The position numbers were made by a program, and so were the translations under genes. A DNA stretch of 40,463 bases from assembly GCA_947565425.1 (NCBI GenBank), contig CANOFW010000028.1, positions 1 through 40,463 of the forward strand. The letters run 5' to 3'. Positions 9,112 to 40,463 of this stretch are shown in pieces. Positions within the stretch are counted from its first letter, which is position 1; each line of letters begins with the position of its first letter. This DNA comes from an uncultured Lachnospiraceae bacterium (GTDB taxonomy: Bacteria > Bacillota > Clostridia > Lachnospirales > Lachnospiraceae). Below the pieces are notes generated by a model, which did no database searches, was not told where the DNA came from, and saw only the letters and a program-made list of their open reading frames with translations.

Positions 9112-9582
9112 TTAATTCTTTCCGATAGACTGAAAAAGATTAACCATTTCAATGGCTGTGCAAGCCGCATCGTAACCCTTATTACCCGCCTTAGTTCCTG
9201 CACGTTCGATTGCCTGTTCAATATTGTCTGTTGTTACCACACCAAAAATTACAGGAATTTCCGTTTTTAATCCTACAGCAGCCACACCCTTGCTGACCTC
9301 GGCGCACACATAATCGTAATGGCTGGTTGCTCCTTTAATCACGGTTCCCAGACAGATAACGGCGTCATACTGGCCGCTCTCAGCCATTTTCTGCGCTGTC
9401 AGGGGAATCTCAAACGCTCCCGGCACCCAGGCAAGGGTAATGTCATCATCTGAGACGCCATGACGCAGCAATGCATCCTGTGCGCCTCCTACCAGCTTCG
9501 ATACGATAAACTCATTAAACCTGGACGCTACAATTCCAACCTTTATATTGCTTGCTACTACGTTTCCTTCTAATACTCTCAT
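9112..9582 (-). CDS. ribH: 6,7-dimethyl-8-ribityllumazine synthase
   Basis: Condenses 5-amino-6-ribitylamino-uracil with 3,4-dihydroxy-2-butanone 4-phosphate, the penultimate step of riboflavin synthesis, usually in a 60-mer shell. 156 aa. Motifs: VASRFNEFI (about 16), WVPGAFEIP (about 53), [16 protein letters not shown] (about 80) with the catalytic His, and GVVTTDN. The site AAAGGAG is too close to the ATG at 9588 but 7 bases from the ATG at 9582, and MRVLEGN is the usual family start, so 9582 is preferred. Last gene of the rib operon. Confidence 0.95.
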
Positions 9583-9596
9583 TTTCATTCTCCTTT

Positions 9597-10799
9597 TTAA
9601 TAATTTGTCATGTGCTGCATTTTACTCTGTTTGGTCTTTAAATAAAAAACATCGGTCTTTTTGGCGGGCATTTGAATCGATACACGTTCCTCAATGGAAA
9701 TGCCGTAACCGGACAGGCCCGTAATTTTCTTGGGATTATTTGTGAGCAGGCGCAGTTTCTCCGCGCCCAAATCATGAAGAATCTGCGCGCCAATGCCGTA
9801 ATCCCGAAGATCCGGCGCAAATCCCAATTTGACGTTCGCCTCCACCGTGTCAAATCCCTGTTCCTGTAATTCATAGGCTTTGAGCTTGTTAATCAGGCCA
9901 ATGCCCCTTCCCTCCTGGCGCATATAGAGAAGAATACCTCTTCCCTCCTCGGCAATTGCTTTCATAGCCGCCTCGAGCTGTTCCCCGCAATCGCATCGCC
10001 CGGAACCAAACACATCCCCAGTTAAACATTCTGAATGGACTCTGCACAGAACTGGCTGTCCGTCCGAAACGTCTCCCATCGTCAGCGCGACATGGTGCTC
10101 GCCATTCAATTTATTGACATAGCCATAGATTTCAAATTCACCGTATTTCGTGGGCATCTTCGCGTGCGCTTCCTGGCGCACTAAGCTGTCCCTATCCATA
10201 CGGTAGCGTACCAGGTCTGCCACAGTGATTACCGTCATCTGAAACTTTTCTGCCAGCTCCAATAATTCGGTAGTGCGCATCATTGTACCGTCTTCCCGCA
10301 TGATTTCACAACAGAGACCACATGGTTTCAACCCTGCAAGCAGCGCAAGGTCTACCGTCGCCTCCGTATGCCCGGTACGTTTTAAGACACCGCCTTCTCT
10401 CGCCTCCAGCGGAAACATATGCCCCGGCCTGCGGAAATCTTCTGGCTTCGCACCGTCCTTGACCGCCAGCAATGCCGTTTCAGAACGTTCAAAAGCCGAA
10501 ATTCCAGTGTCCGTGTCAATGCCATCTATAGACACGGTAAACGCTGTCTGATGGTTATCTGTATTCTGCTCCACCATTTGCTTTAAACCAAGCTGCTGAC
10601 AAAGCTCCTTACTCATGGGCATGCAAATCAACCCCTTACCATGCGTTGCCATAAAATTTATGTTTTCCGGGGTGGCAAATTGCGCTGCGCAGATAAAATC
10701 GCCCTCATTTTCCCTGTCAGGGTCGTCAATCACCATCACAATCTTCCCCAGGCGGATATCTGCTAATGCCTGCTCCACCGTATCAATTTTTTTGCTCAT
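9597..10799 (-). CDS. ribBA: Bifunctional 3,4-DHBP synthase / GTP cyclohydrolase II
   Basis: Fusion of the two enzymes that open riboflavin synthesis, 400 aa. The N-terminal RibB half shows [10 protein letters not shown] (about 25-34) and [10 protein letters not shown] (about 145). The C-terminal RibA half shows [10 protein letters not shown], then a zinc-site CDCG preceded by a Cys about 10 residues earlier, and RQEGRGIGL. Both halves look intact. The start at 10799 is backed by AGGAG; an upstream ATG adds only seven residues. It follows ribE by 81 bases and precedes ribH by 14. Confidence 0.95.
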
Positions 10800-10880
10800 T
10801 TTCCCTCTCTCCTTTCCCAAAAACAGTCTTCACCCACAACATACGCCGGCAAAATGATAGCTATAAAGAAGCACACCCCA

Positions 10881-11531
10881 TCAGAGAAACCCATGCTCCA
10901 TCAGGAAATTCTCGTCAAGCCTGCTCTTTGGTTCCTGCACTTTTGCGGGGGCAAGCAGTTTCTCCACATATTTCCCTACAATATCACATTCAATATTGAC
11001 GATACTTCCTTTCTTCCTCTCAGTAAGCGCCGTCTCCTGCCGGGTATGCGGAATCACCGACACTTTAAAGTCCCGCTCTGTGACATTCGCTATGGTGAGG
11101 CTGATCCCATCTAAGGCCACAGACCCCTTCTCCACAAGGTAGCGAAGCAGGTTAGCTTCTGCTGCCACCGTATACCAGACTGCATTTTCCTCCTGTTTTA
11201 TATCCGTAACCCGCCCGCATCCGTCAATATGACCGGAAACGATATGCCCGCCAAATCTACCGTCCGCTCTCATCGCGCGTTCCAGGTTTACAACACCTGG
11301 CACCGTAAGTTCCGACAGACTGCTGCGACGCATCGTCTCCGCCATCACATCTGCCGTAAAGCCGTCTTTTGCCAGGGAAGTGACAGTCAGACAGATTCCG
11401 TTGACGGCAATACTATCTCCAACTTCCGTCCCCTCCAAAACTTTGCGGCAGCGAATTTTCACCTGCGCCGACACAGCCCCTTTTTTGATTTCACAGATCG
11501 TCCCTGTCTCTTCTATAATTCCGGTAAACAT
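10881..11531 (-). CDS. ribE: Riboflavin synthase, alpha chain
   Basis: Dismutates two lumazine molecules to riboflavin. 216 aa with the duplicated lumazine-binding barrel: the first half begins MFTGIIEETG and contains VNGICLTV, and the second contains GHIVSGHIDG (about 95) and LDGISLTI. A good AAGGAG site precedes the ATG. The first 19 bases overlap the end of ribD, consistent with coupled translation. Confidence 0.95.
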   Translation of the reverse strand: MFTGIIEETGTICEIKKGAVSAQVKIRCRKVLEGTEVGDSIAVNGICLTVTSLAKDGFTADVMAETMRRSSLSELTVPGVVNLERAMRADGRFGGHIVSGHIDGCGRVTDIKQEENAVWYTVAAEANLLRYLVEKGSVALDGISLTIANVTERDFKVSVIPHTRQETALTERKKGSIVNIECDIVGKYVEKLLAPAKVQEPKSRLDENFLMEHGFL

Positions 11532-12670
11532 GAAATCTCCTTTCCAATCCTCCCTGTAATGCAGATATCTTTGCCAAAAGAAGAAATCTCAACATCCTGC
11601 AATTCCAGCGCGTCCTTCATCCTGGAAATACCCGCGCCCTCCACCGGGGATTTGGCGTTTGCTCCGGCGACCAGTTTCGGAGCCACAAATGCGTAGACCC
11701 GCTGAACGAGATTTTCCCGCAGTGCAGAAGCATTGAGCGTGCCGCCGCCCTCCAGGAGAACGCTGTCAATCCCCCGCGCGCCAAGTTCCCGAAAAAGCTT
11801 TCGCAAATCCAGCTCAGGATTCACACCGCCTTTCTTGAGAGGGATTTGCAGAAGCGTTATGCCTTTTCCCTTTAGATAATCCACAGTTTCGTTCAGAGAC
11901 TTCGTTTCTGCCACCTGCGGATTCCAGGCAATCACCGTCTCAATCTCTCCCGCCGTCTCTACAATCTGGCTGTCCAAGGGAATTCTAAGCCGCGTATCAC
12001 AGAGGATGCGCAGCGGATTCCTGCCACCCTCCATTCTACAATTGAGCAGCGGATTATCAGCAAGTACCGTACCAATGCCCGCCAAAATGCCACGATAACG
12101 CTTGCGCAGACATTGGACATATGCTCTCGCCTCCTCACCGGTCACCCATCTGGAATCCCCTGTCTCGCAAGCGATTTTCCCATCCAGGGTCATGGCATAT
12201 TTCATTGCCACAAACGGCATTTTTTCCTCCATGTAATAGAAAAACACTTCATTTAATTTCCGGCATTCTTCTTCCAAAATTCCTGTCTCTACCTGAACGC
12301 CATGCTCCCGCAAAATCTGCACGCCTTTCCCCGCCACCTTGGGGTTGGAATCCAGACAGCCGACATAGACTTTTTGAATCTTTTTCTCTAAGATAATCTC
12401 CGTGCAGGGCGGCGTCTTCCCGTAATGACAGCACGGCTCCAAAGTAACATAAAGCTCAGCTCCCTGCACATCCTCCTGACAGTGCAACAACGCGTTGCGC
12501 TCGGCATGGAAGCCGCCGTACCTTTCATGATAGCCTTCGGCAACAACCCTGTTATCTTTCACTACCACACATCCTACCATGGGATTGGGCGACACGTTTC
12601 CCTCTCCCCGTTTCGCCAAGGCAAGCGCCATGCGCATATAATCCTCGTGCGTACTCAAAGATTCTCCCAT
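11513..12670 (-). CDS. ribD: Bifunctional diaminohydroxyphosphoribosylaminopyrimidine deaminase / 5-amino-6-(5-phosphoribosylamino)uracil reductase
   Basis: Second and third steps of riboflavin synthesis, 385 aa. The N-terminal CMP/dCMP-deaminase-type zinc site is complete: HAERNAL (about 55) and PCCHYGKTPPC (about 80). The C-terminal reductase domain has MKYAMTLDGKIA (about 155) and LLEGGGTLNASAL (about 300). The start follows AAGGA. It begins 5 bases after the ribU stop region and overlaps ribE. Confidence 0.95.
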   Translation of the reverse strand: MGESLSTHEDYMRMALALAKRGEGNVSPNPMVGCVVVKDNRVVAEGYHERYGGFHAERNALLHCQEDVQGAELYVTLEPCCHYGKTPPCTEIILEKKIQKVYVGCLDSNPKVAGKGVQILREHGVQVETGILEEECRKLNEVFFYYMEEKMPFVAMKYAMTLDGKIACETGDSRWVTGEEARAYVQCLRKRYRGILAGIGTVLADNPLLNCRMEGGRNPLRILCDTRLRIPLDSQIVETAGEIETVIAWNPQVAETKSLNETVDYLKGKGITLLQIPLKKGGVNPELDLRKLFRELGARGIDSVLLEGGGTLNASALRENLVQRVYAFVAPKLVAGANAKSPVEGAGISRMKDALELQDVEISSFGKDICITGRIGKEISCLPEL

Positions 12671-12674
12671 CTGC

Positions 12675-13298
12675 TTAATCCTTTCTTGCTCTATTTGTCC
12701 CTTTTAAAAACGGTGAAATATGTTTGTAAATCAGCACTGTAATCACGACACTGAATAAGCCTTTTACCAATGTAAACGGCGTGTTAAAAACAATCAGGCA
12801 TTGCAGGATATTTTCAACGCCCGGAAAAATTGCCTGATACGCCGTCAAAATAGCGTCCTTATCCATAAAATTATAATAAACCGGATAGACGATATAGTAG
12901 TTGGAAATCACGCTCACCGCCGCCATCAGAACCGACCCCAGCGACGCTCCAAGAATTGCACTCTTTTTTCCCTTCCATTTGCGATAAATCATCCCCGCCG
13001 GAAACACGAAACAAGCGCCCAAGATAAAGTTGGAGAGTTCGCCTACGCCCCCGGTCGTGGACATAAAAAGATGCAGAAGATTCTTAATCAGGCAGATTGC
13101 CACGCCGCTGACAGGCCCCATGGCAAACGCGCCAATCAGTTCCGGCAAATCAGACAAATCCATTTTAATAAAAGGCGGCATAATCGGCACGGAAAATTCC
13201 AGAAACATCAGCACGAAAGCAATTGCAGACAACATGGCTGTCATCGTCAGTTTCCAGACGTCTATTCGTTTTTCTGTCGTTCTCGTTGTGGAATTCAT
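12675..13298 (-). CDS. ribU: Riboflavin ECF transporter substrate-binding subunit RibU
   Basis: Integral membrane S-component that captures riboflavin and works with a shared EcfA/EcfA'/EcfT module, not encoded here. 207 aa with about six hydrophobic helices. The family signature FLEFSVPIMPPFIKMDLSD, then AFAMGPVSG and IKNLLHLF, covers residues 35-85. An AAAGGAG site serves ATGs at 13304 (too close) or 13298 (9 bases), so 13298 is preferred. The longer frame to 13391 would start inside the riboswitch terminator and is not real. First gene of the riboswitch-controlled operon, linking uptake with synthesis. Confidence 0.92.
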   Translation of the reverse strand: MNSTTRTTEKRIDVWKLTMTAMLSAIAFVLMFLEFSVPIMPPFIKMDLSDLPELIGAFAMGPVSGVAICLIKNLLHLFMSTTGGVGELSNFILGACFVFPAGMIYRKWKGKKSAILGASLGSVLMAAVSVISNYYIVYPVYYNFMDKDAILTAYQAIFPGVENILQCLIVFNTPFTLVKGLFSVVITVLIYKHISPFLKGTNRARKD

Positions 13299-13373
13299 CT
13301 TCATAAGCTCCTTTCCCACGAATGCGCATAATAATTTTTGTCTTATAGGAAGGACAATTTCACGCTTCAGCAT

Positions 13374-13404
13374 AAAAAGCCCTGAATCCAAATAGATTCA
13401 GGGC
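13374..13404 (-). terminator. Riboswitch expression-platform terminator
   Basis: A 10-bp stem (gccctgaatc 13379-13388 with its complement 13395-13404), 6-base loop, then five Ts on the minus strand (13378-13374). It lies between the FMN aptamer and the ribU ribosome binding site, so FMN binding is expected to favour premature termination. Confidence 0.9.
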
Positions 13405-13712: not shown

Positions 13713-16700
13713 TTATTTCTTAATGTTCATGGTCTTTTTATAACCGGTCGAAGGTTTAAAGAGCTTTTTATAGCTTGACACTTTCTTTTTCGGGCATTGG
13801 AGCGTTGCTTTTTTGTAAATTCCCTTGATCGCATTCTTGCCAACTCTCGTAAGTGATGTGCCGCTGATTTTTATTTTCTTCAGCTTGCCACATTTTTCAA
13901 ACGCACTTGGCTCTATCTTCGTCACGTTTTTACCGATGGTAACGGATGTCAGTTTCTTATAACCTTTAAACGCATTCTTGCCAACCGTCGTAATCTTGAA
14001 ATTCTTGCCGCCAATCTTGACCGTCGCACCAATTTTCACGCTCTTTAATGTTTTCTTGCCACCATATACCGTAACGGTTCCCGTTCCGTTGGTCTTGGCA
14101 TTGGCAATCTTATATTTGTAATTTCCGACGGTGTACGTTTTGTTCTTTACCACCGTAATAACAAAGTTCCTGCTCAGACTTCCCTCATAACTGCCTGTAC
14201 CGGTAATTGTCACCGTTGCCGTACCAATGTTCTTGTTGTTTTTATAAGTAACTATATAATCCGTATTCTTAACCAATGTCTTGCCGTTGTAAGTTACTTT
14301 TACCGCCGGAGAAATTAATTTACCAGTAAAGGTCTGCGCTTTGATGGCGGCAACACTGGCTTTTCTGATATCAACTTTATCCGCTGTTACCGGTGGTTTC
14401 GACAATTCCTGATATTTCGCTTCTGCCTCTGTCAGCACAGTCACATTTGTCACCAGGGCTTTCTGTTTGTCTGTCAGCTTATCATACGCTGTCCGCGCAG
14501 CTTCAATTTTTGCCTTACAATCTGTCGTTGCCGTCACAACTCCAATCTTATCAATCAATTCCGTGACTACGGCGGCGGCTTCTTTATCCGCTTTGTCCTT
14601 ATCCTCATCATCACCGCCACCTATAGTTTCCTCTTTCATCTTGCCAACACTGAAATCGTCTACATGAGACCATGCGCCGCCTGTCATATTACCGGAAATA
14701 CCAATGGTCAACGTACCGTCCTTGACTTCTGCCACCAAGCCGATAACCTCGCCTTTACTGTTTATGCTGATACTCGGGATATCCTCTTTGGCAAGCAGCT
14801 TTCCGGAGGCGTCTTTCGCATAGATATACAATTCATCCTCGGCGCTAAATTCAGAATCTGCTTTCACATTCACGGCATACGTTCCATTTGCAAGATTTCT
14901 CAAGGTCTGGTTCAATTCCACTGTAAAATTACTTGTAGACCAGATATTGTACCCGCCTTTGCCGGAAAGCACATCCTGCGTTCGATTCGTCTGCTTTCCT
15001 GCCGAGCCGGTATTCGTCCAGTCCGTACTTGCATTCAATGCCTGCTCAAAATCTCCGTTCGGCACTGCAACTGCTTGTGGGATTACCAAATCTGCCGTAT
15101 AAGCCTCATCTCTAACCACGGTAATTTTATCAGAAACACTCTGAACAGCAACGCCATCTTTTGCCGCCAGAACCTGATATGTGTCCTCAATTACCTGTAT
15201 ACTGTACGTTCCATCTGCGCCTGTTTTTACCGTATAACGCTTATCACTTGCCTTCGTCTTGCATCCGCGCAGTGTTACTGTTGCATTGGCAACCACTGAC
15301 CCGGACATATCCTTGACTGTTCCTGTAATCGTACCCATTGCGCTCTGCATCGTCTGTTGCGCTACCGTAGCAGTCTCACCAACGGCAACTGTTACCGACG
15401 CCTGCTTGGGAGAAACGTAGCCTTCCTTCTCTGCCTGAACCGTATAAGTCCCTGCCAAGATATCGGAAACTGTATAAATTCCATCCTTGTCGGTTTTAAC
15501 AACCGTCACATGTTCTCCCGTCGTCAAAGTAACCGTAACCCCGGCAATGCCATTGCCTTTTGCGTCAACAATTTTACCAGTGATATTTCCACCCTGGTTT
15601 GTAACCGTAACTGCTGGAACCTGTGCAGTCTGTCCTGCTGTTACCGTCACCTTCTGCGTGGCTCCCTCTATCACACAAGAATTTACAGCGACCGTCACCG
15701 TATAAGTCCCCGCCTTAACCGGAGATATGGTATACGTCTGCGTTCCGCTCTTTAACTTCTCTTCATAGACATAGGCAACTGTTCCGTCTTCTGCCGCCAC
15801 AGTGACCGTCACATCCTTTGTTACATCAGAAGTTACTGGCAATGCAATACTTTCTGTATCTGCGCTCTGTTCAGAGGAGCGCACAAATGTCACATCATCT
15901 ACAAGCGCAGAGGCGTTTTTCTGACCTTTGGCAATAAATCCAATTTCCGCCCTTCCGCCTGTGACAGTGACATCTTTCAATGTCACTTGCGTATAAGCGG
16001 AATGCGCCTTGGCAATCATGGCTTTTTTCGTCAAACTTCCTGATTTGGCATACATGCTTAACTCACTGAAAGTTCCGCTGTTCTTAATCTTTGCCGTCAA
16101 ATCGTAGGTTCCATCCGGCAATGCCACCGCATCGGCAGTTGCCGTATTCTGTGTAATAACCTGAGAAACTTTGCAATCAAAATCTACAGAATCGCCCAAT
16201 TTCAAAGCATATTTCCCGGTAACCTTATCTTTATTGTTGCTAACCGGGGCATTTCCAGACTGAATCGTATTACTCCAACCTGCCAACTCCTTCATATCTA
16301 CGCGGTCTGCATCGAAACTTCCATTTTTCACATAATTATTTGCCGCATGTACCGTCCAATTTCCAGTTGCAAGGTCTAAATCCCAAGCACTTAACGAATT
16401 GAAAAATGGTGTGCCGTCTGCTTTGAACGACAACGGGCACCATTGGTTATATCCCAGTCCATTCCCTGCAAAATCTGCCCAGCGATCACCACAGAAAAGC
16501 ACGGTTTCCTGCTCGCTTCCTTTGACCGTGTAGAAAAATCCAGTCTGTGTGACATGACAGAAATCTTCACTGCTGCCGTCCATCAACGCCATACTTCCTA
16601 CCGCCTGAAAGCTATCCAGATAAGCGTCCTCAAGGCTGTCTAATACCATATAGTAGGCGTGAGACGCATTCCATCCATACAGGTCGGAAGCGCACACATA

Positions 16701-17609
16701 ATACTTGTTGTTATACTTGAACATACAGTTGCCTTCGCGCCCTGCCCCCTGATAAATCTTGTGCGATTTTGCAAGACCGATCTTGCCATTTTCCTGCGCA
16801 ACAATCTTAGAAAGAAAAATCCTTCCTCTGCCAGAGCCATACGAATATACGAGATAGCTAGTTCCATCGTCATCCGTAAACACGGTCTGGTCGCCCGTGT
16901 TGGTTGTTCCTCCGGTATAACTGTGCATATTGATACGCTGATTCCATGTAAACTTACCAGTCGGAGTATCAGACGTCAGCACAAGCACCTGTTTGCTATA
17001 TTTATCGTTATCAACATTACCGTCCATAGAATTATCTGGATCTTCGCATTCATGCTGCACAAACAGCGCATACGTTCCGTCCACGCAGGCAACGCCAAGG
17101 CGCCCTACCCAGTCAACCGATTTATTGTTCATTTCTTCCCTGTCGCTGACTTCTTCCCTGTCTACGACAAGTCCTTCATAATTCCATGACACAAGGTCTT
17201 TGGACGAATAACAGGTAACGCCCACAAATTTGGGAGATGGGTCTGTGGAATATGGTCCTGCTGCTGGATTTGCCGCATATTTTTGCGCCTCTTCATATTT
17301 CACACCATACCAGTAATAAGTACCGTCAAATTCAAAAATGCCGCCACCCTGGGAATAAATAATATTTCCCTCTGTATCACGCCAAAAAATATCATTTTGA
17401 ATATCTGCATCTTGGGCGCTGCGCTCTCTGAGCGTAACCGTCTTATCTGCCAACGCCGTCCCATCCGCTGCAAGGAGCGTTCCGCTGATGGTCGCATTCT
17501 CCCCTCCTGTTTCTTTTGCTGCCTCTGCGAACACCGGCTGAGATACACCGGACAGCATGGAAACTGACATTGCCAGCACTAGTAACTTGCTGATAAATTT
17601 CTTTTTCAT
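13713..17609 (-). CDS. Secreted GH43-like multidomain glycosidase with BspA-type repeats
   Basis: 1298 aa with a signal peptide (1-28). Domains by eye: a short carboxypeptidase-regulatory-like strand pair (38-65); a GH43-like five-bladed propeller (about 72-415) with GGGIFEFDGTYYWYG, GDQTVFTDDDGT and a likely acid Glu at REGN (292); a CBM-like jelly roll starting NGSFD (428-577); an Ig-like stretch (590-670); two carboxypeptidase-regulatory-like domains (674-755, 758-845); a second CBM-like domain starting NGDFE (850-990); an acidic GGGDDED linker; a three-helix module (1005-1070); an Ig-like domain (1078-1155); and LRR_5/BspA-like repeats to the C-terminus (1160-1298). It probably acts on galactan- or arabinan-type glycans, but the GH43 subfamily cannot be fixed. 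No LPxTG or membrane anchor, so retention may rely on the repeats. Single-gene unit with a good AAGGAAGGGATG start context. Confidence 0.85.
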   Translation of the reverse strand: MKKKFISKLLVLAMSVSMLSGVSQPVFAEAAKETGGENATISGTLLAADGTALADKTVTLRERSAQDADIQNDIFWRDTEGNIIYSQGGGIFEFDGTYYWYGVKYEEAQKYAANPAAGPYSTDPSPKFVGVTCYSSKDLVSWNYEGLVVDREEVSDREEMNNKSVDWVGRLGVACVDGTYALFVQHECEDPDNSMDGNVDNDKYSKQVLVLTSDTPTGKFTWNQRINMHSYTGGTTNTGDQTVFTDDDGTSYLVYSYGSGRGRIFLSKIVAQENGKIGLAKSHKIYQGAGREGNCMFKYNNKYYVCASDLYGWNASHAYYMVLDSLEDAYLDSFQAVGSMALMDGSSEDFCHVTQTGFFYTVKGSEQETVLFCGDRWADFAGNGLGYNQWCPLSFKADGTPFFNSLSAWDLDLATGNWTVHAANNYVKNGSFDADRVDMKELAGWSNTIQSGNAPVSNNKDKVTGKYALKLGDSVDFDCKVSQVITQNTATADAVALPDGTYDLTAKIKNSGTFSELSMYAKSGSLTKKAMIAKAHSAYTQVTLKDVTVTGGRAEIGFIAKGQKNASALVDDVTFVRSSEQSADTESIALPVTSDVTKDVTVTVAAEDGTVAYVYEEKLKSGTQTYTISPVKAGTYTVTVAVNSCVIEGATQKVTVTAGQTAQVPAVTVTNQGGNITGKIVDAKGNGIAGVTVTLTTGEHVTVVKTDKDGIYTVSDILAGTYTVQAEKEGYVSPKQASVTVAVGETATVAQQTMQSAMGTITGTVKDMSGSVVANATVTLRGCKTKASDKRYTVKTGADGTYSIQVIEDTYQVLAAKDGVAVQSVSDKITVVRDEAYTADLVIPQAVAVPNGDFEQALNASTDWTNTGSAGKQTNRTQDVLSGKGGYNIWSTSNFTVELNQTLRNLANGTYAVNVKADSEFSAEDELYIYAKDASGKLLAKEDIPSISINSKGEVIGLVAEVKDGTLTIGISGNMTGGAWSHVDDFSVGKMKEETIGGGDDEDKDKADKEAAAVVTELIDKIGVVTATTDCKAKIEAARTAYDKLTDKQKALVTNVTVLTEAEAKYQELSKPPVTADKVDIRKASVAAIKAQTFTGKLISPAVKVTYNGKTLVKNTDYIVTYKNNKNIGTATVTITGTGSYEGSLSRNFVITVVKNKTYTVGNYKYKIANAKTNGTGTVTVYGGKKTLKSVKIGATVKIGGKNFKITTVGKNAFKGYKKLTSVTIGKNVTKIEPSAFEKCGKLKKIKISGTSLTRVGKNAIKGIYKKATLQCPKKKVSSYKKLFKPSTGYKKTMNIKK

Positions 17610-30650: not shown

Positions 30651-32012
30651 TTACATCATCTTTATCAAAGTCAGCATCCAGTTATCATCCGCCTGTCTGT
30701 CATAAGAAATCCTGACTACCTCTTCCTCTGAACCTGCTTCATAACAACAGGAATATCCACGTCCCACAAAACCGGGCAGTTTATAAAACCCGCCAAAGAC
30801 AATAAAAATCTCTCCAAAAGCATTCTTCTTATGCAAGAAATCTTCAAAAGCCTCCCGCTTCACATAAACGTAGCTGTCATCGTAGGAAATCATCTTATGC
30901 AGGCTCTTATCGTAAGAAGTCATCTTATGCAGGCCATTAGTACGAAACGCCTCTTTGTCTACGTTATCATCCTGCGCAAGCAGCCGCGATTGATTGCTCT
31001 CTACATCAAACGCATATACTAACATGCTGTCATTCTCATTACATCTGTCAAAGGAAACATTTTCTATACCCAGGACCATACCTGCAACGCCTAAAAAAAC
31101 GGCAAACAGCATACCCATCAAAGCTATACGCTTATAAGGTTTGTACCTGGCAATTTGCGTCATTCTCCGGCGGATATCCTGATATTCCTCGTTGCCCATA
31201 AAAGCAGCATACATATTGAACGCTTCCTTCTCTGCCTGCAAAAACCTCATACTCTTTATCAACAATCGCCCATATGCGTATGACGTCCGCCCGCTTCTTT
31301 GAATCGTCACCCGGTCGCAAACTTCTTCCATATCCTCGCGCAAAAATTTCGTGCCAAGATGAAGCAATGGATTCACCCACAAAAATGCACGCAATAGATC
31401 CCACAAAAAATGAATCCATAAATGTCCCCGCCAGATATGCACCTGTTCATGGAGAAGTATTATTTGTATTTCTTCCTCGTCATATTCCTCCAAAATAACC
31501 TGTGGCACGACAATTTTAGGTCTGAACAATCCTATGGAAAATGGTGTGACAGGAGTCTTTGTAACGTACACAGCCGCGCATCCTTGAAATAGCTTGGGGC
31601 TGCCGGGATGCAGGGAAGAGCGCACGGTTCTTTTTTCCATGTTGGCAACCATTTTTTGAAGTTTTCTTCTTCTTGTAAATAACAGCGCCATAGATACAAA
31701 CACACCGAGAAAATACAGTCCGTATATCCATATATGATTTAGAAAAGTTTGCGGCAGCCAGGTAAACAGCATGACGCCAACCATATGCTCATAAAAGAAT
31801 TTCATCTTGCCCACAAACAGGACGGGAAGAAACAAGCTCCACAACGCGCCTTTGAGGAACACATGATTCTTGCAAAAAGTCTTGCGCAAAGACCAGACAA
31901 GCACGAATACTCCCAGAGAAACGAGGGCGCACCGCATGATCTGCATTCCATAATAGCCTGCGCCAATTTGTAAAAGCTGCATACCCTTACTGATAAACTC
32001 CTGTGCCATCAT
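30651..32012 (-). CDS. M56-family (BlaR1/MecR1-like) membrane metallopeptidase
   Basis: 453 aa. About four transmembrane helices with a zinc-peptidase domain: HEQVH (188-192) and the distal Glu in REDMEEVCDR (about 229). BlaR1-type proteins cleave a BlaI repressor when the outer domain senses a signal. A last helix near 303-322 is followed by an outer part of only about 128 residues that lacks the SxxK and KTG motifs of penicillin-binding sensors, so the ligand is probably not a beta-lactam. A nine-residue near repeat (HKMTSYDKS, HKMISYDDS) occurs in it. It overlaps the repressor gene by 4 bases. Confidence 0.88.
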   Translation of the reverse strand: MMAQEFISKGMQLLQIGAGYYGMQIMRCALVSLGVFVLVWSLRKTFCKNHVFLKGALWSLFLPVLFVGKMKFFYEHMVGVMLFTWLPQTFLNHIWIYGLYFLGVFVSMALLFTRRRKLQKMVANMEKRTVRSSLHPGSPKLFQGCAAVYVTKTPVTPFSIGLFRPKIVVPQVILEEYDEEEIQIILLHEQVHIWRGHLWIHFLWDLLRAFLWVNPLLHLGTKFLREDMEEVCDRVTIQRSGRTSYAYGRLLIKSMRFLQAEKEAFNMYAAFMGNEEYQDIRRRMTQIARYKPYKRIALMGMLFAVFLGVAGMVLGIENVSFDRCNENDSMLVYAFDVESNQSRLLAQDDNVDKEAFRTNGLHKMTSYDKSLHKMISYDDSYVYVKREAFEDFLHKKNAFGEIFIVFGGFYKLPGFVGRGYSCCYEAGSEEEVVRISYDRQADDNWMLTLIKMM

Positions 32013-32407
32013 GCCTTGCCCTTATCCTTACACTGCTCTAACATATCCTCAAGCTCCCGGAACTGCTCTTCGGTCAGTTTTGCACTCTGTAATAAAGCAG
32101 CCATGGCATTTTTGCGGCTGCCTGCAAAATAGCTGTCCACAAACTTCTGGCTCTTCTCCCGCTGGCATTCCTCTTTTGATTTGACAACGGAATAATGATA
32201 TACCCGGGAATCATGCGCATCTACGGTGTAGCTCAAGACGCCCTTCTGCCATAAACGATTTAACAGGACACGCACCATGCGCGGCGACATGTCGGCATTA
32301 TCTTTCATTTTTGCAATCACCTCTCTGGCCGTCAGTGAGGTGTCGCTTGCCCACAACACTTCCATTACCAGCCATTCGCTTTGGCTTGGTGAAGTCTCCT
32401 TATCCAT
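32009..32407 (-). CDS. BlaI/MecI/CopY-family repressor
   Basis: 132 aa. The winged-helix start SQSEWLVMEVLWASDTSLTAREV, then MSPRMVRVLLNRLWQKGVL and HDSRVYHYSV, is the BlaI pattern. The rest is a dimerisation helix region ending in FRELEDML. BlaI-type repressors bind as dimers and are released by M56 proteolysis. The ATG at 32407 has AAGGAG 8 bases upstream; a frame ten codons longer has none. It is translationally coupled (4-base overlap) to the M56 gene. No clear TACA-n-TGTA operator was seen upstream. Confidence 0.92.
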   Translation of the reverse strand: MDKETSPSQSEWLVMEVLWASDTSLTAREVIAKMKDNADMSPRMVRVLLNRLWQKGVLSYTVDAHDSRVYHYSVVKSKEECQREKSQKFVDSYFAGSRKNAMAALLQSAKLTEEQFRELEDMLEQCKDKGKA

Positions 32408-32503
32408 TTTGCATTCTCCTTCTGCTGCTCTTTCCATGTATATCGGATAGAAAGAGAATTTTATTAATGTTTGTTCCTATTTAAATCTTATAAAAAAGAA
32501 ATA

Positions 32504-33157: not shown

Positions 33158-33667
33158 TCAGTCCAGAGGTTCTACTACTACTGCTTGAAGAACAGCCGCT
33201 TGGCTTCCTGCGAAATCATCCACGTTCACCACTCCGGTTACCCGGACGTGGGCGCCTGATTCCGGCTTCTGAGCCACATACACAAGGGGCAGGCTGCTCT
33301 CCATTTTTTTATCTTCTGTAAGAGTGTTGGTGAGATACGAGTTCCCATCCTCCTCGATATAGTAGCCTTCCATTTGGAAGAGCTGCCCGGAGTAGTCGCC
33401 CGTATTTTCTTTTATTTCTGCGACAGTCTTGCTGAAATTTTCCTCTGTCACCACATTGATGTCATCATCTATTGCTTCCAGTAAGTCCTCATCGGTAGCA
33501 TCCGGCCCGAGTAGCGGTTCCTTGCTGCTATCTTCCTTCCCACCGTCTCCGGCTGTGCCTTGCTGCACATTTTCATCCGCCGTGTCCTGCTTTTTAACGC
33601 TATTGCAAGAAACAAGCGAAACTCCAAGAATTACACATAGGAAAAAAGTCAGAAATTTTTTACTCAT
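33158..33667 (-). CDS. Small lipoprotein of unknown function
   Basis: 169 aa. A lipoprotein signal (LGVSLVSCNS, Cys21) is followed by an acidic Gln/Gly/Ser linker and a domain from about residue 70. The second half (GDYSGQLFQMEGYYI, LVYVAQKP, HVRVTGVVNVDDF) looks like an OB-fold beta barrel. No catalytic motif. It starts 30 bases after the stop of the 2198-aa gene on the same strand, so both are probably co-transcribed, with this protein tethered to the membrane near the secreted giant. AAAGGTG is 11 bases upstream of the ATG. Confidence 0.8.
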   Translation of the reverse strand: MSKKFLTFFLCVILGVSLVSCNSVKKQDTADENVQQGTAGDGGKEDSSKEPLLGPDATDEDLLEAIDDDINVVTEENFSKTVAEIKENTGDYSGQLFQMEGYYIEEDGNSYLTNTLTEDKKMESSLPLVYVAQKPESGAHVRVTGVVNVDDFAGSQAAVLQAVVVEPLD

Positions 33668-33697: not shown

Positions 33698-36600
33698 TTA
33701 GTTGAAACCATTTGCATAATTTCCACTGATAATGTTGCTTGAATATGTGATAGTGTATACACCATCTTTCAACGTGATAACGTATCCTCTTGCATAAACC
33801 ATTCTCTCATCATTTACAGTTGATTCTGCGCTTCCAAGATTCAACGTCATGGTCATTCCTAAATAATCACGCATGGTCTTGCCTTCTGCCTCAGCCATTT
33901 CCTTGGTAAACTTACGGTTACGAAGGTTTCCGCTGGCAGTAAAGCTGCCCTCTTCATTCAGCTCTACGGACAAGTCTGCCTCTACATTTGCCGGGTCATA
34001 ACCTGCTGCATTGATGTAAAGCATACCAGTCTCAATAATCTCTGCGTCTTTATCTTCCACATCTACATAGGTAGAAAGCGTGATCTTCTTATTTCCGTCT
34101 ATTATGCTTCCGCTTCCTACAGTACTTGCAGATGCAGTCTTCTTACCACACTCAGTACATACGCCGTTCTCGTCGAACTTATGGCCAAGCGCTTCAATCT
34201 CCGTCTGCTCTGTGACAACAACGCCGCAAGCCTCGCACTTCTCACCGTCTGACAAACCGGTTTCCGTACAAGTTGCCGGCTTTCCAGGAACGGTAACAAG
34301 GTCTTCATGATTATCTGCGTCAAGCTCAAGCGCTCTGTCCGTACCTTCAATATCCTTTTCACATACGGAACATGTCTGGATTTCGCTTCCCTCTGTCATA
34401 CAGGTGGAAGCTTTCACGGTGCGGTACGCGCCCGGTGTGTGCGCAGCTAATTCAAGCTCTCTGTCTGTGCCTTCGATATCCTCACCACATACGGCACATG
34501 TCTGGATCTCGCTTCCTGCCGTTTCACAAGTTGACTCTGTTACAGTGCGGTACTCGCCAGGCGTATGGCCAGTTGCAGGAATTACTTCCTGTTCCGTAAG
34601 AATTGTCTCACAAACAGAACATTTCACACCAGCCGTCAAGCCGTCCTCCGTACAGGTTGCTTCTTTTCCTTCTAACGTTACTTCTGTATGACCTTTGGCT
34701 TCAATTACCTCACATCCCCGCAAGACTTCTGTACATCCTTCTTCCGGACATACTTTTCCAGCTTCATGACCGGCTTCCGTACAAGTTGCATCTACTTTCT
34801 CTACAGATTTTCCAATAACTTCACCATGTACCGGGCAAGTGAACAGTCCAATCTCCTCTAATGTCTTGTGGCAGTACTCACATGCTCCATCTACAATACT
34901 ATGAGCATCCGGGTTAATGGCAATTTCTTCCATTCCATCGAATACGGTGTCGCATCCTTCCGTCGGACATACTAATCCTGCCTCACGGCCTGCTGTTGTA
35001 CAGGTTGCTTCTACTTTTGCTACAGATTCTGCTTTTACCCAGCCATGTGTCGTACATTCTTTGAAGCCAAGTTCTTCGGCTGTCTTATTACAGTACTCAC
35101 AGGTGCCTTCTACAAGGTTATGTGCATCCGGATCAATGGCAATTTCTTCCATTCCACCTAATACATTGTCGCATCCCTCTTCAGGACATACAAGTCCTGC
35201 CTGATGACCTGGTGTTGTACACGTTGCTTCTACTTTCTCTACAGATTTCGCTTTTACCCAGCCATGTGTTGCACACTCTTTGAAGCCAAGTTCTTCGGCT
35301 GTCTTGTTACAGTACTCGCAGGTACCTTCTACAAAATGATGTGCATCCGCGTTGATAGCAATTTCTTGCATTCCATCGAATACGGTGTTGCATCCTTCCG
35401 TCGGACATACAAGTCCTGCCTCGTGGCCTGCTGTTGTACAAGTTGCTTCTACTTTTGCTACTTGTTTTCCTGCTGCCCAGCCATGTGTCTCGCACTTATG
35501 CCAGCCAAGTTCTTCCACTGTCTTGTGGCAGAACTTACATGCATTGTCCTCAATTACATGAGCGTCCGGTTTTGCATCTTCTCCGATAACAGGAGTTTGA
35601 TCTGGATCTGCTCCGCCGCAGCCTTCACAGATGAACTCAAGAATTTCCGGATTGGTACAGTTTGCCGGAGTATACTTCGGCTGATAATTATGCTCTCCGG
35701 TTGATGGGATAGTTTCTATCTCGCCATACCTATTGCTACATACTGCACATACTGCCTGCTTCTGTCCGTCTGTTGCGCATGTTTCTGCCTTTAATACTTC
35801 ATACGTTCCAAACTTATGAGGCAGCATCTCGATATCTTCTTTCTCGCGAACTACCTTAGGACCTGTTGATCCGTCTGCAAGCGTATGGTCTTTCAAACAA
35901 GTAATTTTTTCGGTATAACCTTTTTCGGTACAACTTGCTTCCTTACCTTCTTCGATTAATGCATCGGCTTCTGCGGATTCGTTGGAGATTAATCCGTGTT
36001 CCGGACAATATCCATAATGCGGAGCAACATAGATCAATTCCGTATTACCGCAGCGAGTACATTCGTTAAAGGATACTTTCAATTTGCCTGCTTCATCTCT
36101 GATTAACTTTGTTTTATAATCATGGCCTGCTGCAATCGCAGTTCTCTTTACACGCTGTGTATCTCCGGCTGCCGCTGCTTCTTCCTCTGTACAACGCGTA
36201 CAGGTTTCTACCAGAGTTCCGCCGTTCTCACAGATATCTTTTAAGAGTTCCGGTGTGGTTGCTTCCACGCCTGTTACCGTAAGTTTGACGCCTTCGCCGT
36301 ATACATGGTGTGCCGGATCTTGCGCCTCTTCCGGTAAAGCTGTTTCTTCATCATAGTCACAGTTTGCACACTCTTCATGGATATAACCATCTTTAAAGCA
36401 GGTGGACGCTACCTGTGTAACTGTAAGATTATGTCCTGTAGCTTCAATAGTTTCTTCTTTCGTGCCATCGCATCCGGTTCTAAGACAATGCCATGTCTTG
36501 GTACCATTTTCTGTACAAGTTGCAGCTTTAACTTCTACATTGCCGTCTGCATGCTCTGCATTTGTCCACTCATGGCCTTTTGCCTGCGGATTTTCGAGTT

Positions 36601-39600
36601 TTGCTGCCAACGCAGCGATTTCCGTATCATGGCTGCCGTCGCCCCATCCGTTCGCTTCGATCATCTCGTTGAGAATCTCAGCGCTGTTTAAGGTGGTAAC
36701 TTCCTGGTAACCTTCGTCAAATTCTTTACATACGGAACACTGTTTTCCTACTGTTGTATTATGTGTACAATCGGCAGGAACAATATCTAACTCGCCAAAC
36801 TTATGGCCTTGATGTTCTATAATCTCTGTCTTAGTATGACCTGCTACAGTCTCTTCACATACGGAACATGTGTAAGTCTTTACGCCGTCTGTCGTACAGG
36901 TTACTTCCGTTGTGATAACGCCTGCGTCATATTTATGTCCGAGTTCTGTCGGGATTGCCTCGTATTTTTTCTTGTCACATCTACTACAAGTAAATGTTCC
37001 AAGACCTGTCTCCGTACAAGTTGCCGGACGGAAACTTTCTGTCAGTTGCCAATCATGATCAAGCGCTGGATAATCATCTGCAAGCTCGATTACTTCTCCC
37101 GCATAATCACAGCCCTTTACCGTACATACTTCCTGTACTGTTGCTGGATTCTCGCAGTCTGCCTCTGTGAATTTGTCTTCCAGTTCATGACCTTTCGGTA
37201 TTATTACCGTTTTAACGTCTCCGCAAGTAGAACATACGGAAACTTCTGCTCCATCCTCAGTACATGTCTTAGCCGTAGACTGTTCAGCGTCAACTTCATA
37301 GGTATGCTCTCCGCTTGCCTCTGTATTCGTGAGCGCCATAATTTCTGCCATTATCTCACCAAATGCAGTCTCTTGATCTTCAGAAAGTTCTCCATCCTCA
37401 GCAATGTTAAGAAACGCTTTGTATGCGTTTGTCAACGTTTCTGTATCGGCATCGCTCATTGCACCTTCAGTAAGTACAATCGTCAGCAAGCTGTCTTTGC
37501 CGTCTCCGCAGACACTACAGTATTTTCCTACTTTTGCCGGATTGCCGCAATCTGCCTCTTTGATGTCAAATACATACGTATGATCTGGCCTCTCTGTAAT
37601 CGGCTCGCTCTCCGTATAATCACAGCGGCTACATTTCTTAGCGTCTACGCCGTCTGCGCCGCAGGTAGCCGGCTTGCTGTTTTCGGTATCTTCTACTATG
37701 TCATGTCCCAGCGCTTCAATCTCTGCGTCAGCCTCAACGGTATGGCAGTCCTGGCATTCGCGCTTGCCTGTGCCCTTTTCCGTACAAGTTGGAGCTTTTG
37801 TTTGTTCCATCTCGCCCCAGTTATGTTTTACTGGTACCGGCACATATTTTGATTTCTTACAAATGCTGCATACCTGTTTCTCCAGGCCTCCCTGATTACA
37901 GTTCGCCTCTGTCAATACGCTTGACGTCTCCCACTTATGGCCGTTTGTCGTATCAATCGGGTAAATCTCCGGCTGAGTCTCCCAAGTCTCACACTTCGCA
38001 CAGTAATTTCCTTCTCCGTGTCCTTCCGCGATACAGGTTGCCTCTACCGCCTCCTGCGGCTGGAACTCATGTCCGCTTGCCGTATCCTTCGTGATACTAT
38101 TTTCTGCGAGTTCTTCGTCGCTCAATGTCACTTCCTGCTTGCAGTTCTTACAATAAGCTTTGTAAGATGCGTCTTCCGTACAGGTTGCGTCTATCTTCTC
38201 ATAGATGAGAGCGCTGTCACTGTTTTTACTGTAATCATGCCCTGTCGCTGCTACTTTCTCAGAGTAAACCTCTCCGCATGCCTGGCACTTCTTATAAGTT
38301 ACACCCTCTGTGGTACAGGTTGCAGCCACATTCTGATGTGTCTCATCCTCAAATGCCACGCCGTTATGAGCGGTTGCCTCTGCTGCTGTAAGCGCCTGCT
38401 CAAACTCATTAATTTCTGATTCATTATCTGTCTCATTATAACCGTTGTTTGCAATAAACGCTGCTACCTGTGCTGTTACAAAATCTGCATATCCATCATC
38501 ATTTGTATCGGGAATCACTACTGCCGGGTCTTTTCCTTCGCCGGTAACTTCTGCGCCGCAGCCTGCTGTACCGCAAATCCAGCCTACCCTTGCAGCTCCC
38601 GTACAGCTCGCTTCAATGACGCCATAAGTTGCATTTGCCAGGTCGTGGTCTGTCATGTCAAGAATTTCTTCCTTGGTTCCACTACAGCCATCTACTGTAC
38701 ATTTATAAACATTCTTGCCCAGTGTATGACAGTTCGGTGTTATGCTGCTATCCGGATCAGGAGTATCGCTCCACGTATGGCCCTTTGCCGGTACGGTGGT
38801 AGTTCTCTCCGCCGGGCTTCCGTCTTCCTTCGGATCAGTACATGCCGGATTTCCCTCTTTATCTGTTCTTGTACAGCTCTCTGTCTTCACGCCGTCCTCT
38901 GTACAGCTTACTTCTGGATTCCATGTTGCATTTCCCCATTTATGGCCTGACAAAATTGCTTTGTAACCTGTTTTGCCGCAATTTACACACTTGTATTTGC
39001 CTAAGCCGTTCGTGGAAGAACAATCCGGCTCTCTTACGATGCTGACAAGGTACTGTGCATCATACGGATCTTCTGGATATACATGAGAGGTAGATGTTCC
39101 TGAAACCTCCTGCGGCTCAAGGGTAACCGTATTACAGTCCGCACATTTTTCGCCTTCGCTTTTGCCCGGGCCTGCGCAGGTTGCCGGAACTGCCGGAATT
39201 TTTACCAGATTCGTATGGTTCTCCGGATTTTTGTTCTCGTCATACACTACTGTATCATGTACGGTACTGTGCGCTGGGTTCTTACAGAAATGCGCGGTTC
39301 CTTTACCCTTTTGACAGGTTGCTTCTTCTCCCGGTACGTCGGTTGCTTCCTCTGCCCACTCATGATTCTCAGGATCTAACTCCGTACCGTCGCTGCCTGT
39401 CTTTTTCACAGGCGTTCCACAATTCTTACATTCCTGATATTTGTAACTTGGCGTCAAGCAGGTTGCAGCCATTGTCTTCTCCGGCTGGTCCGTTACTACG
39501 TGCGCGTCGCTGTTCGGCTCGCCGCGGGTTTCTTCTGTGTCAGGATCAAACTCACCGCAGTCCTTACACTTAATAGCCCATACGGCAGCAGCTCCACAAG

Positions 39601-40294
39601 TGGCAGGACTTTTCTCTTCCAATTCCTGGCCTTCATAATTATGCTTTGTCGAGTCCACTGAACCCACTGTTGCCTCCGGATTTGGCTGCTCACATCCGTT
39701 GACACATTTCTGTGCTGTCTTCTCTGGCAGTATGCAAGTAGCCGCCTGAACCACAACGGTATCTCCGCTGTAATCATGATCAAGCTGTGTATCAGGCGTC
39801 TCCTCTTCACTGCCTTCTTGGAATGCCGTACACTTTGTACACTTGAACGCCATAATCTGGTCGCTCTCGCAGGTTGCTGCTGATTTCTCTGTCTTCTCAG
39901 TCGCCCATACATGCTCTGAGAGTTCGCCAAACTCTACGGTATTTGTATAGTCGCATTTCTTACAGGTAGAGATAATCTGCCCCTTCGATGTACAGGTTGG
40001 TTCAATCGTTTCCTGTTCCAGATCATGTCCTGTTGCCGGGATCGTCACCCAGAACTCTTTGTCCGCGATATTGGACTGTCCACATACATCACACTCAAAT
40101 AACCCCACACCCTCATCTGTACAAGTCGGCTCGTTGATTGTTTCCACCAACTTGTCAGTAAAAACATGCTCTCCTGGCGCACATGAGTCAACATGCGCAT
40201 CAGTACCTCCTTCCGCAGCATATGCCGGCACATTCCATGATAACATCATGGACAGAGTCAGCACTACGCTCAGAAGACGTTTCCATTTGTTCAT
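33698..40294 (-). CDS. Giant secreted Cys-rich repeat protein (about 39 C-C-x-x-C-H modules)
   Basis: 2198 aa with a signal peptide (1-27, cleavage near AYAAEG). From residue about 38 to 2050 it consists of roughly 39 modules of 35-75 residues: a TC with Gly soon after (ATCTExG), 6-10 residues, then CxxC (sometimes CxxxC), then a loop of 10-60 residues ending GH. I count about 130 Cys. The ligand-like Cys3His set suggests one metal ion, or disulfides, per module; neither is proven. Four modules near the C-terminal third form a 73-aa higher-order tandem array with an extra CEYC-x11-CxxH unit. Three modules carry acidic helical inserts. A Cys-free C-terminal domain of about 145 residues ends RGYVITL, TYSSNIISGNY. 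No LPxTG or membrane anchor. AAAGGAG lies 9 bases before the ATG. Confidence 0.88.
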   Translation of the reverse strand: MNKWKRLLSVVLTLSMMLSWNVPAYAAEGGTDAHVDSCAPGEHVFTDKLVETINEPTCTDEGVGLFECDVCGQSNIADKEFWVTIPATGHDLEQETIEPTCTSKGQIISTCKKCDYTNTVEFGELSEHVWATEKTEKSAATCESDQIMAFKCTKCTAFQEGSEEETPDTQLDHDYSGDTVVVQAATCILPEKTAQKCVNGCEQPNPEATVGSVDSTKHNYEGQELEEKSPATCGAAAVWAIKCKDCGEFDPDTEETRGEPNSDAHVVTDQPEKTMAATCLTPSYKYQECKNCGTPVKKTGSDGTELDPENHEWAEEATDVPGEEATCQKGKGTAHFCKNPAHSTVHDTVVYDENKNPENHTNLVKIPAVPATCAGPGKSEGEKCADCNTVTLEPQEVSGTSTSHVYPEDPYDAQYLVSIVREPDCSSTNGLGKYKCVNCGKTGYKAILSGHKWGNATWNPEVSCTEDGVKTESCTRTDKEGNPACTDPKEDGSPAERTTTVPAKGHTWSDTPDPDSSITPNCHTLGKNVYKCTVDGCSGTKEEILDMTDHDLANATYGVIEASCTGAARVGWICGTAGCGAEVTGEGKDPAVVIPDTNDDGYADFVTAQVAAFIANNGYNETDNESEINEFEQALTAAEATAHNGVAFEDETHQNVAATCTTEGVTYKKCQACGEVYSEKVAATGHDYSKNSDSALIYEKIDATCTEDASYKAYCKNCKQEVTLSDEELAENSITKDTASGHEFQPQEAVEATCIAEGHGEGNYCAKCETWETQPEIYPIDTTNGHKWETSSVLTEANCNQGGLEKQVCSICKKSKYVPVPVKHNWGEMEQTKAPTCTEKGTGKRECQDCHTVEADAEIEALGHDIVEDTENSKPATCGADGVDAKKCSRCDYTESEPITERPDHTYVFDIKEADCGNPAKVGKYCSVCGDGKDSLLTIVLTEGAMSDADTETLTNAYKAFLNIAEDGELSEDQETAFGEIMAEIMALTNTEASGEHTYEVDAEQSTAKTCTEDGAEVSVCSTCGDVKTVIIPKGHELEDKFTEADCENPATVQEVCTVKGCDYAGEVIELADDYPALDHDWQLTESFRPATCTETGLGTFTCSRCDKKKYEAIPTELGHKYDAGVITTEVTCTTDGVKTYTCSVCEETVAGHTKTEIIEHQGHKFGELDIVPADCTHNTTVGKQCSVCKEFDEGYQEVTTLNSAEILNEMIEANGWGDGSHDTEIAALAAKLENPQAKGHEWTNAEHADGNVEVKAATCTENGTKTWHCLRTGCDGTKEETIEATGHNLTVTQVASTCFKDGYIHEECANCDYDEETALPEEAQDPAHHVYGEGVKLTVTGVEATTPELLKDICENGGTLVETCTRCTEEEAAAAGDTQRVKRTAIAAGHDYKTKLIRDEAGKLKVSFNECTRCGNTELIYVAPHYGYCPEHGLISNESAEADALIEEGKEASCTEKGYTEKITCLKDHTLADGSTGPKVVREKEDIEMLPHKFGTYEVLKAETCATDGQKQAVCAVCSNRYGEIETIPSTGEHNYQPKYTPANCTNPEILEFICEGCGGADPDQTPVIGEDAKPDAHVIEDNACKFCHKTVEELGWHKCETHGWAAGKQVAKVEATCTTAGHEAGLVCPTEGCNTVFDGMQEIAINADAHHFVEGTCEYCNKTAEELGFKECATHGWVKAKSVEKVEATCTTPGHQAGLVCPEEGCDNVLGGMEEIAIDPDAHNLVEGTCEYCNKTAEELGFKECTTHGWVKAESVAKVEATCTTAGREAGLVCPTEGCDTVFDGMEEIAINPDAHSIVDGACEYCHKTLEEIGLFTCPVHGEVIGKSVEKVDATCTEAGHEAGKVCPEEGCTEVLRGCEVIEAKGHTEVTLEGKEATCTEDGLTAGVKCSVCETILTEQEVIPATGHTPGEYRTVTESTCETAGSEIQTCAVCGEDIEGTDRELELAAHTPGAYRTVKASTCMTEGSEIQTCSVCEKDIEGTDRALELDADNHEDLVTVPGKPATCTETGLSDGEKCEACGVVVTEQTEIEALGHKFDENGVCTECGKKTASASTVGSGSIIDGNKKITLSTYVDVEDKDAEIIETGMLYINAAGYDPANVEADLSVELNEEGSFTASGNLRNRKFTKEMAEAEGKTMRDYLGMTMTLNLGSAESTVNDERMVYARGYVITLKDGVYTITYSSNIISGNYANGFN
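34732..35570 (-). repeat. 219-bp tandem repeat array inside the giant gene
   Basis: The same landmark (around tacatcc/cgcatcc) recurs at 34732, 34951, 35170 and 35389, exactly 219 bases apart. Each unit encodes 73 aa (KVEATCTTAG, GLVCPTEGC, CEYCNKTAEELGF, THGWVK). The inner units are nearly identical at DNA level, so the array expanded recently, whereas other modules in the protein are diverged. Confidence 0.85.
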
Positions 40295-40299
40295 GCTCT

Positions 40300-40463
40300 T
40301 TAGCTCCTTTCATATAAAATCACTCTTTCGGTATCAACAAGATTTGGGATTCTTTGATATGTATTTACTTCTTCATATGATCCCTTTGCCTCCTTCCATT
40401 TACTTTGAAACATATATTTCCCCACAAATTTGATGTGTTTTAAATGCCCCCAAAGCCCGGAAA
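40300..40463 (-). CDS. C-terminal part of an upstream gene, or a 37-aa small ORF (cut by the window edge)
   Basis: On the minus strand a frame is open from the right edge to a TAA at 40302-40300, at least 53 codons, ending NLVDTERVILYERS. An internal ATG at 40413 (MFQSKWKEAKG) could start a 37-aa peptide, but only a weak GGGG lies upstream. The ribosome binding site of the giant gene lies inside its last codons and its stop is 5 bases before the giant's ATG, which suggests coupled translation within one operon. No clear separate promoter for the giant gene was found in these 170 bases. I do not recognise the protein. Confidence 0.5.
   Translation of the reverse strand, partial: SGLWGHLKHIKFVGKYMFQSKWKEAKGSYEEVNTYQRIPNLVDTERVILYERS

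Follow-up and report, generated by a model that had tools for sequence, protein, structure and literature searches.

The closest described relative of the protein studied here is the IgA protease of Thomasclavelia ramosa (IgAse, or ThomasA; Q9AES2; PDB 9qa6). Two papers on this enzyme appeared in 2025, PMC12237041, which names 9QA6, and PMC12402451. In AlphaFold3 models the ZBD1 and ZBD2 domains of IgAse, which consist of 2-3 subdomains behind the protease, have zinc sites at the interfaces between three-stranded up-and-down subdomains. The authors call this a possibly novel metal-binding fold, unvalidated, and the zinc is predicted only (PMC12237041). We have analyzed a 40,463-nucleotide contig of an uncultured Lachnospiraceae bacterium of a type found in the gut (GCA_947565425.1, CANOFW010000028.1), referred to below as the window, which encodes a giant protein, P0001, with 38 modules of the same type by profile and no enzyme. 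Our favoured interpretation, in which we have moderate confidence, is that P0001 forms a secreted rod whose three-stranded beta modules are linked end to end through metal staples. The ligands are of the structural-zinc type and the published relative was modelled with zinc, which makes zinc the likeliest metal. What is new here is the grammar of the chain, the giant module-only arrays in related species, and the pairing of the array gene with a lipoprotein gene. In the open-access literature searched, printed descriptions of the module were confined to one short, unvalidated passage in a protease paper.

The repeated module of P0001

The P0001 open reading frame (ORF) lies exactly where the original prediction placed it. 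An AAGGAG ribosome-binding site is found at 40304-40309, 9 nt ahead of the ATG, and by eye the N-terminus reads as a leader, MNKWKRLLSVVLTLSMMLSWNVPAYAA.

33698..40294, minus strand: P0001 ORF, 2198 amino acids (aa), ATG start, no internal stop
40214..40294, minus strand: leader-like peptide, aa 1-27 of P0001, read by eye

The protein contains 131 Cys (5.96%) and 69 His; four further ORFs of the window that encode exported or membrane proteins have 0.8-1.8% Cys. There are 35 matches to the strict pattern C-x9/10-C-x2-4-C, whereas 500 shuffles of the same protein averaged 2.5, with a maximum of 8. A hand parse adds three irregular modules, two with CxxxxH/CxxxH replacing CxxC and one with a 10-residue gap between the second and third Cys. 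The total is 38 full modules, and the earlier estimate of about 39 modules and about 130 Cys was thus right within counting error. A His follows the third ligand by 12-25 residues in 35 of the 38. When 32 modules were aligned to make a module profile (A1, from which 3 of the 35 pattern modules were left out for want of a near His), the three Cys and the His alone were invariant and mean column identity was 30%; this invariance is not independent evidence, because the rows were picked by that same pattern. In three modules the CxxC knuckle and the His are separated by inserts of 58-73 aa (36554-36727, 37307-37507 and 38339-38557, all minus strand). The inserts are acidic and perhaps partly helical, and one includes DTNDDGYADF, which by eye resembles a calcium loop.

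Scans of Pfam, NCBIfam and PHROGs gave no family match to P0001 or its modules. In Pfam at E-values up to 10, P0001 matched DUF2483 alone, below its cut-off, and the matches of 32 single modules were all sub-threshold; the absence of a Pfam family was confirmed to that extent. In a search of PDB sequences with profile A1 the best match was 9qa6_A (E = 2.3e-12, best stretch 858-907), and the TC-x9-CxxC-...-GH motif of the IgAse ZBD type is recognisable in P0001 modules by profile. A tandem-module profile found 9qa6_A at only 1.3e-4, ranked below a zinc-finger protein at 2.3e-6. Four of five predicted IgAse sites are His2Cys2 (PMC12237041), whereas those of P0001 are mostly Cys3His. Rubredoxins came next in the A1 search (1rb9, E = 2.5e-4), over about 20 residues around CxxC. 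P0001 modules have the CxxCG knuckle in common with rubredoxins and zinc ribbons, but these carry two CxxC knuckles per small domain, whereas the 32 aligned modules each have one knuckle, a lone Cys and a lone His. The staphylococcal G5-E rods SasG and Aap are a more distant comparison: P0001 has no G5 match in Pfam and the structural score is too low to indicate kinship. Zinc joins separate chains in SasG/Aap, while in P0001 it would join modules within one chain.

Array ends and the placing of ligands

In the reading that we favour, the first Cys (C1) and the His of module k would sit at its outgoing end and the CxxC knuckle at its incoming end. Site k would be made of C1 and His of module k together with CxxC of module k+1, with one metal ion between neighbouring modules. 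A lone C..H (or HxH) pair would mark the start of a string and a lone CxxC its end, and the grammar gives a testable model: n modules with one opener and one closer bind n+1 metals. With S for opener, M for module and T for closer, the hand parse of P0001 is S M27 T, S M3 T, S M T, S M T, S M T, S M5 T, as listed here.

36050..40183, minus strand: string 1, aa 38-1415, start half-site C38/H43, 27 modules, lone CxxC C1412/C1415 at its end (aa 1415)
35528..36007, minus strand: string 2, aa 1430-1589, C1430/H1433, 3 modules, C1586/C1589
35309..35494, minus strand: string 3, aa 1601-1662, C1601/H1604, 1 module, C1659/C1662, in the 219-bp repeat
35090..35275, minus strand: string 4, aa 1674-1735, C1674/H1677, 1 module, C1732/C1735, in the 219-bp repeat
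34871..35056, minus strand: string 5, aa 1747-1808, C1747/H1750, 1 module, C1805/C1808, in the 219-bp repeat
34148..34837, minus strand: string 6, aa 1820-2049, C1820/H1823, 5 modules, lone CxxC C2046/C2049
34848..35569, minus strand: 284-nt repeat in three copies spaced by 219 bp (73 aa), 83% and 77% identical in DNA to the reference copy

The six closed strings hold 38 modules and 44 four-ligand sites (42 Cys3His, 2 Cys2His2) with none unpaired. They use 130 of the 131 Cys, C1861 being left over, and 46 of the 69 His. P0001 would therefore hold 44 ions, each common to two neighbouring modules. The identity among the 284-nt copies indicates that part of the array is recent; the remainder is more diverged.

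Array ends in other proteins were counted in a census. The input was 130 sequences (1.24 Mb, window included), from which ORFs with modules were taken; loci L001-L005, L010 and L011 were left out. Removal of duplicates, P0001 among them, left 143 proteins from 120 loci. These contain 170 Cys clusters, 159 of them with at least 2 knuckles (11 dropped), and clusters cut by the end of a locus were omitted at the cut end. C1 is present at 113 of 140 first knuckles and 723 of 965 interior ones, and at 15 of 140 last ones. A His follows 125 of 140 first, 881 of 965 interior and 28 of 140 last knuckles, and precedes the last knuckle in 116 of 140. Counting one cluster per locus, C1 is found at 10 of 106 last knuckles; with both ends whole as well, at 9 of 94 last and 73 of 94 first knuckles. 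Most commonly 23 residues separate the last His from the CxxC that closes the array; a second group lies at 7-9. Among the 113 untruncated arrays with C1 at the first knuckle, the preceding ligands are CxH in 37, HxH in 22 and a single His in 16, the rest showing other mixes or nothing. Arrays thus tend to begin with C..H or HxH and to finish with a lone CxxC. Such ends are required by staples between neighbours but not by sites within modules. CxxHxxC knuckles are seen in L073, L055, L078 and L035, often after a module without C1; the cases are few, and compensation across modules is a possible explanation.

The fold was predicted with AlphaFold2 for aa 1913-2052, using a 77-row alignment of P0001 and 76 other rows from related loci (alignment A2, for which 76 of 97 listed rows were used; those from unfetched loci and a few irregular ones were left out). 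Mean predicted local distance difference test (pLDDT) was 92.3 and the predicted template modelling score (pTM) 0.53, with three strands per module by DSSP, the same number as in the antiparallel up-and-down subdomains of IgAse (PMC12237041). The order in the middle module is strand 42-49, C53, strand 57-63, CxxC 63/66, strand 75-77, His84. With one strand between C1 and CxxC and one between CxxC and His, the model puts C1 and His at one end and CxxC at the other. The stretch around string 3 that runs closer, opener, module, closer, opener (aa 1583-1690) was predicted with pLDDT 89.1; here 4 of 22 rows were unaligned, and alignment A4 omits 3 of the 21 rows of A3, two because they were misaligned and one because of an insert.

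These results bear on the original prediction, in which small metal sites form a string with a Cys3His site in each module. In kind the string of sites is supported, given three Cys and one His per module and the published zinc models of the IgAse modules. As a site within each module it is not supported: the predicted strand order puts C1 and His opposite CxxC, and array ends carry half-sites that fit only sites shared between neighbours. The four ligands of a given module probably belong to more than one site. Alternatively, every module could hold a metal of its own with its C1, CxxC and His, and the lone C..H and CxxC would be remnants or would pair as separate CxxC-x11/14-CxxH sites. Cys3His is indeed present in each module, and at 5 of 5 internal places in P0001 the lone CxxC lies 12-15 residues from the next C..H, a spacing that a small ribbon could use. 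In other proteins, however, most arrays finish with a lone CxxC: neither C1 nor a following His accompanies 108 of the 140 last knuckles. Together with the strand order this makes a site within each module unlikely.

Several observations weigh against staples between neighbours as we describe them. P0001 was parsed by hand with the staple model in mind. A single His stands alone at 16 of the 113 starts of arrays. There are 109 interior knuckles that lack C1 and are followed by a full module; at least 2 free ligands come before the next C1 in 55 of these, and only one His in 43 (C1 was counted at 9-12 residues, and the 109 include shorter variants). By simple count, free Cys and lone knuckles are unbalanced in other giants; L158, for example, has 11 lone knuckles and 4 C..H pairs. 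The assignment of module ends rests on strand order and not on ligand distances, and AlphaFold2 places no metal. The cryo-EM map of IgAse has no density beyond the O-beta domain (PMC12237041); the IgAse modules are therefore unsolved and the staple model has no experimental structure behind it. The IgAse crystal construct ends at residue 878, ahead of the ZBD domains (PMC12402451). Finally, a staple rod leaves the C-terminal domain of P0001 and the role of its neighbouring lipoprotein unexplained.

A proposed stapled rod and other possible roles

If modules are stapled in this way, P0001 would probably act at the cell surface as an extended extracellular scaffold or spacer. Taking about 110 A per three subdomains of the IgAse model (PMC12237041), its length would be tens of nm, and up to about 140 nm if straight. 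Joints locked by metal would make the extracellular spacer stiff with no need of disulfides, as would suit an anaerobe, and if this is true staples explain how anaerobes stiffen long exported proteins without them. Short arrays in other proteins would act as spacers between domains; for P0001 and its kin the product would be the rod itself. More tentatively, P0001 could belong to a widespread, unnamed class of zinc-stapled bacterial extracellular rods with opening and closing half-sites, a length and stiffness that could depend on free zinc, so that a rod might for example fall apart when a host withholds it, and a dedicated lipoprotein that tethers or assembles them; we regard this as possible but rather doubtful.

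A metal store, a redox-sensitive fibre and an adhesin had been named as possible roles. These are not told apart by our data, and a structural rod or scaffold fits the architecture best. We consider it quite improbable that the main role is extracellular capture or storage of zinc, with 44 ions per chain and a lipoprotein that hands the metal on. The number of sites in P0001 is high and the lipoprotein partner is conserved, as a store would have it. Many arrays are short, however: 116 of 274 consist of one full module (by a crude cut), and the short arrays of the host genome are borne by enzyme-like secreted proteins, named by eye as two large glycosidase-like proteins and one amidase-like protein. 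Short arrays on enzyme-like carriers fit structure better than storage. Buried Cys3His sites also release zinc slowly. As weak evidence in the same direction, one Zur-type DNA pattern had 0 matches in the window against 1.67 expected, the upstream DNA being cut by the contig end. Least probable by our estimate, and very improbable, is that disulfides formed in an oxidised extracellular state make locked beads or a redox-sensitive fibre: P0001 is exported and Cys-rich, the Cys within CxxC could pair, and IgAse is monodisperse only with reducing agent, but the odd number of Cys (three) per module is unsuited to disulfides within a module, His accompanies Cys in 35 of 38 modules, the habitat is anaerobic to judge from named relatives, and no disulfides were seen in the structures or models of IgAse despite its 24 Cys (PMC12237041).

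Distribution, gene neighbours and the lipoprotein

The module profile matches 22 of 41 relatives, 94 of 200 genomes of the host's family and 20 of 398 genomes drawn from the phylum, the host being included each time. The module is thus common in the host's family, yet it is unmatched by any Pfam or NCBIfam family. A pattern scan of named genomes confirmed 201 loci, of which 80 were kept. Most are metagenome assemblies under the labels Clostridia, Lachnospiraceae, Oscillospiraceae or Ruminococcus; Alistipes and Spirochaetales label one assembly each, and four records carry strain names: Blautia schinkii, Gemmiger formicilis, Pseudoflavonifractor phocaeensis and Parablautia sp. Other giants of little but modules occur in related species, and the five scanned (1450-1868 aa) had no Pfam match at E-values up to 0.001. 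Their tails differ: by eye, L158 has a membrane tail and L160 and L162 have sortase-like tails. Two BFVD entries deposited as phage, A0A8S5QLF9 ('S-layer homology domain') and A0A8S5SUG5 ('Leucine rich repeat'), match the module model with E = 3.1e-7 and 1.0e-4.

Beyond its array P0001 has a C-terminal domain, and a lipoprotein gene follows on the same strand.

33701..34138, minus strand: C-terminal domain of P0001, aa 2053-2198
33158..33667, minus strand: lipoprotein gene, 169 aa, 30 nt after the P0001 stop, weak DUF1980_C/TIGR03943 similarity

The C-terminal domain has no Pfam or PHROGs match, and no sortase motif was seen in it by eye. It is common to L155 and L166 by tblastn, others being alike by eye, and a search found similar tails in array proteins of the related genomes G018 and G007. 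When window genes were compared by tblastn with the fetched loci, the lipoprotein gene was found adjoining array genes of relatives. A profile of seven lipoprotein copies gave 12 strong matches (E < 1e-50) in the 41 relatives and, among the matches listed for the 200 family genomes, two more (6.6e-39 and 2.7e-33). Thirteen of the 14 strong lipoprotein genes, the window's included, lie directly behind a same-strand array ORF with gaps of -17 to 142 nt; the exception, L206:3738-4376, is a lone copy with no array within the 9 kb fetched. As the seven copies that made the profile had been found beside arrays, the fair test is given by the seven finds due to the profile only, six of which are adjacent. 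Weaker matches listed (E > 1e-8) mostly span the first 60-120 positions, the lipobox region; those covering the domain are G026:C81 (positions 80-182) and G025:C24 (85-176).

By sequence comparison the lipoprotein domain appears distantly related to DUF1980_C/TIGR03943. DUF1980_C was matched by 5 of 7 homologues at E-values up to 0.1 (best 3.3e-8), the window copy scoring 16.1 bits, below the Pfam cut-off of 25.9. TIGR03943 was matched by all three copies tested (E = 8e-10 to 5e-5), with scores of 26.8, 38.4 and 22.8 bits, far below the 88.8-bit cut-off. The lipoprotein would be the membrane-side partner of P0001, probably helping to hold the rod at the surface. YcgQ/ScfB presumably belong to TIGR03943. 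The B. subtilis genes ycgR and ycgQ are described as uncharacterised and as controlled by extracytoplasmic function (ECF) sigma factors that belong to the envelope stress response (PMC5584981).

A BlaI-type repressor and a BlaR1/MecR1-type M56 peptidase lie side by side about 0.7 kb downstream of the lipoprotein gene (30651-32437, minus strand); neither was detected by tblastn at E = 1e-3 in the loci available at that stage. Elsewhere in the window, 13713-17609 (minus strand) encodes a secreted protein of 1298 aa that combines GH43, carboxypeptidase-regulatory and BspA-type leucine-rich domains and lacks the Cys modules. At 9112-13391 (minus strand), genes for riboflavin synthesis stand in a row with one for a RibU-like transporter, as recognised by eye in the translations.

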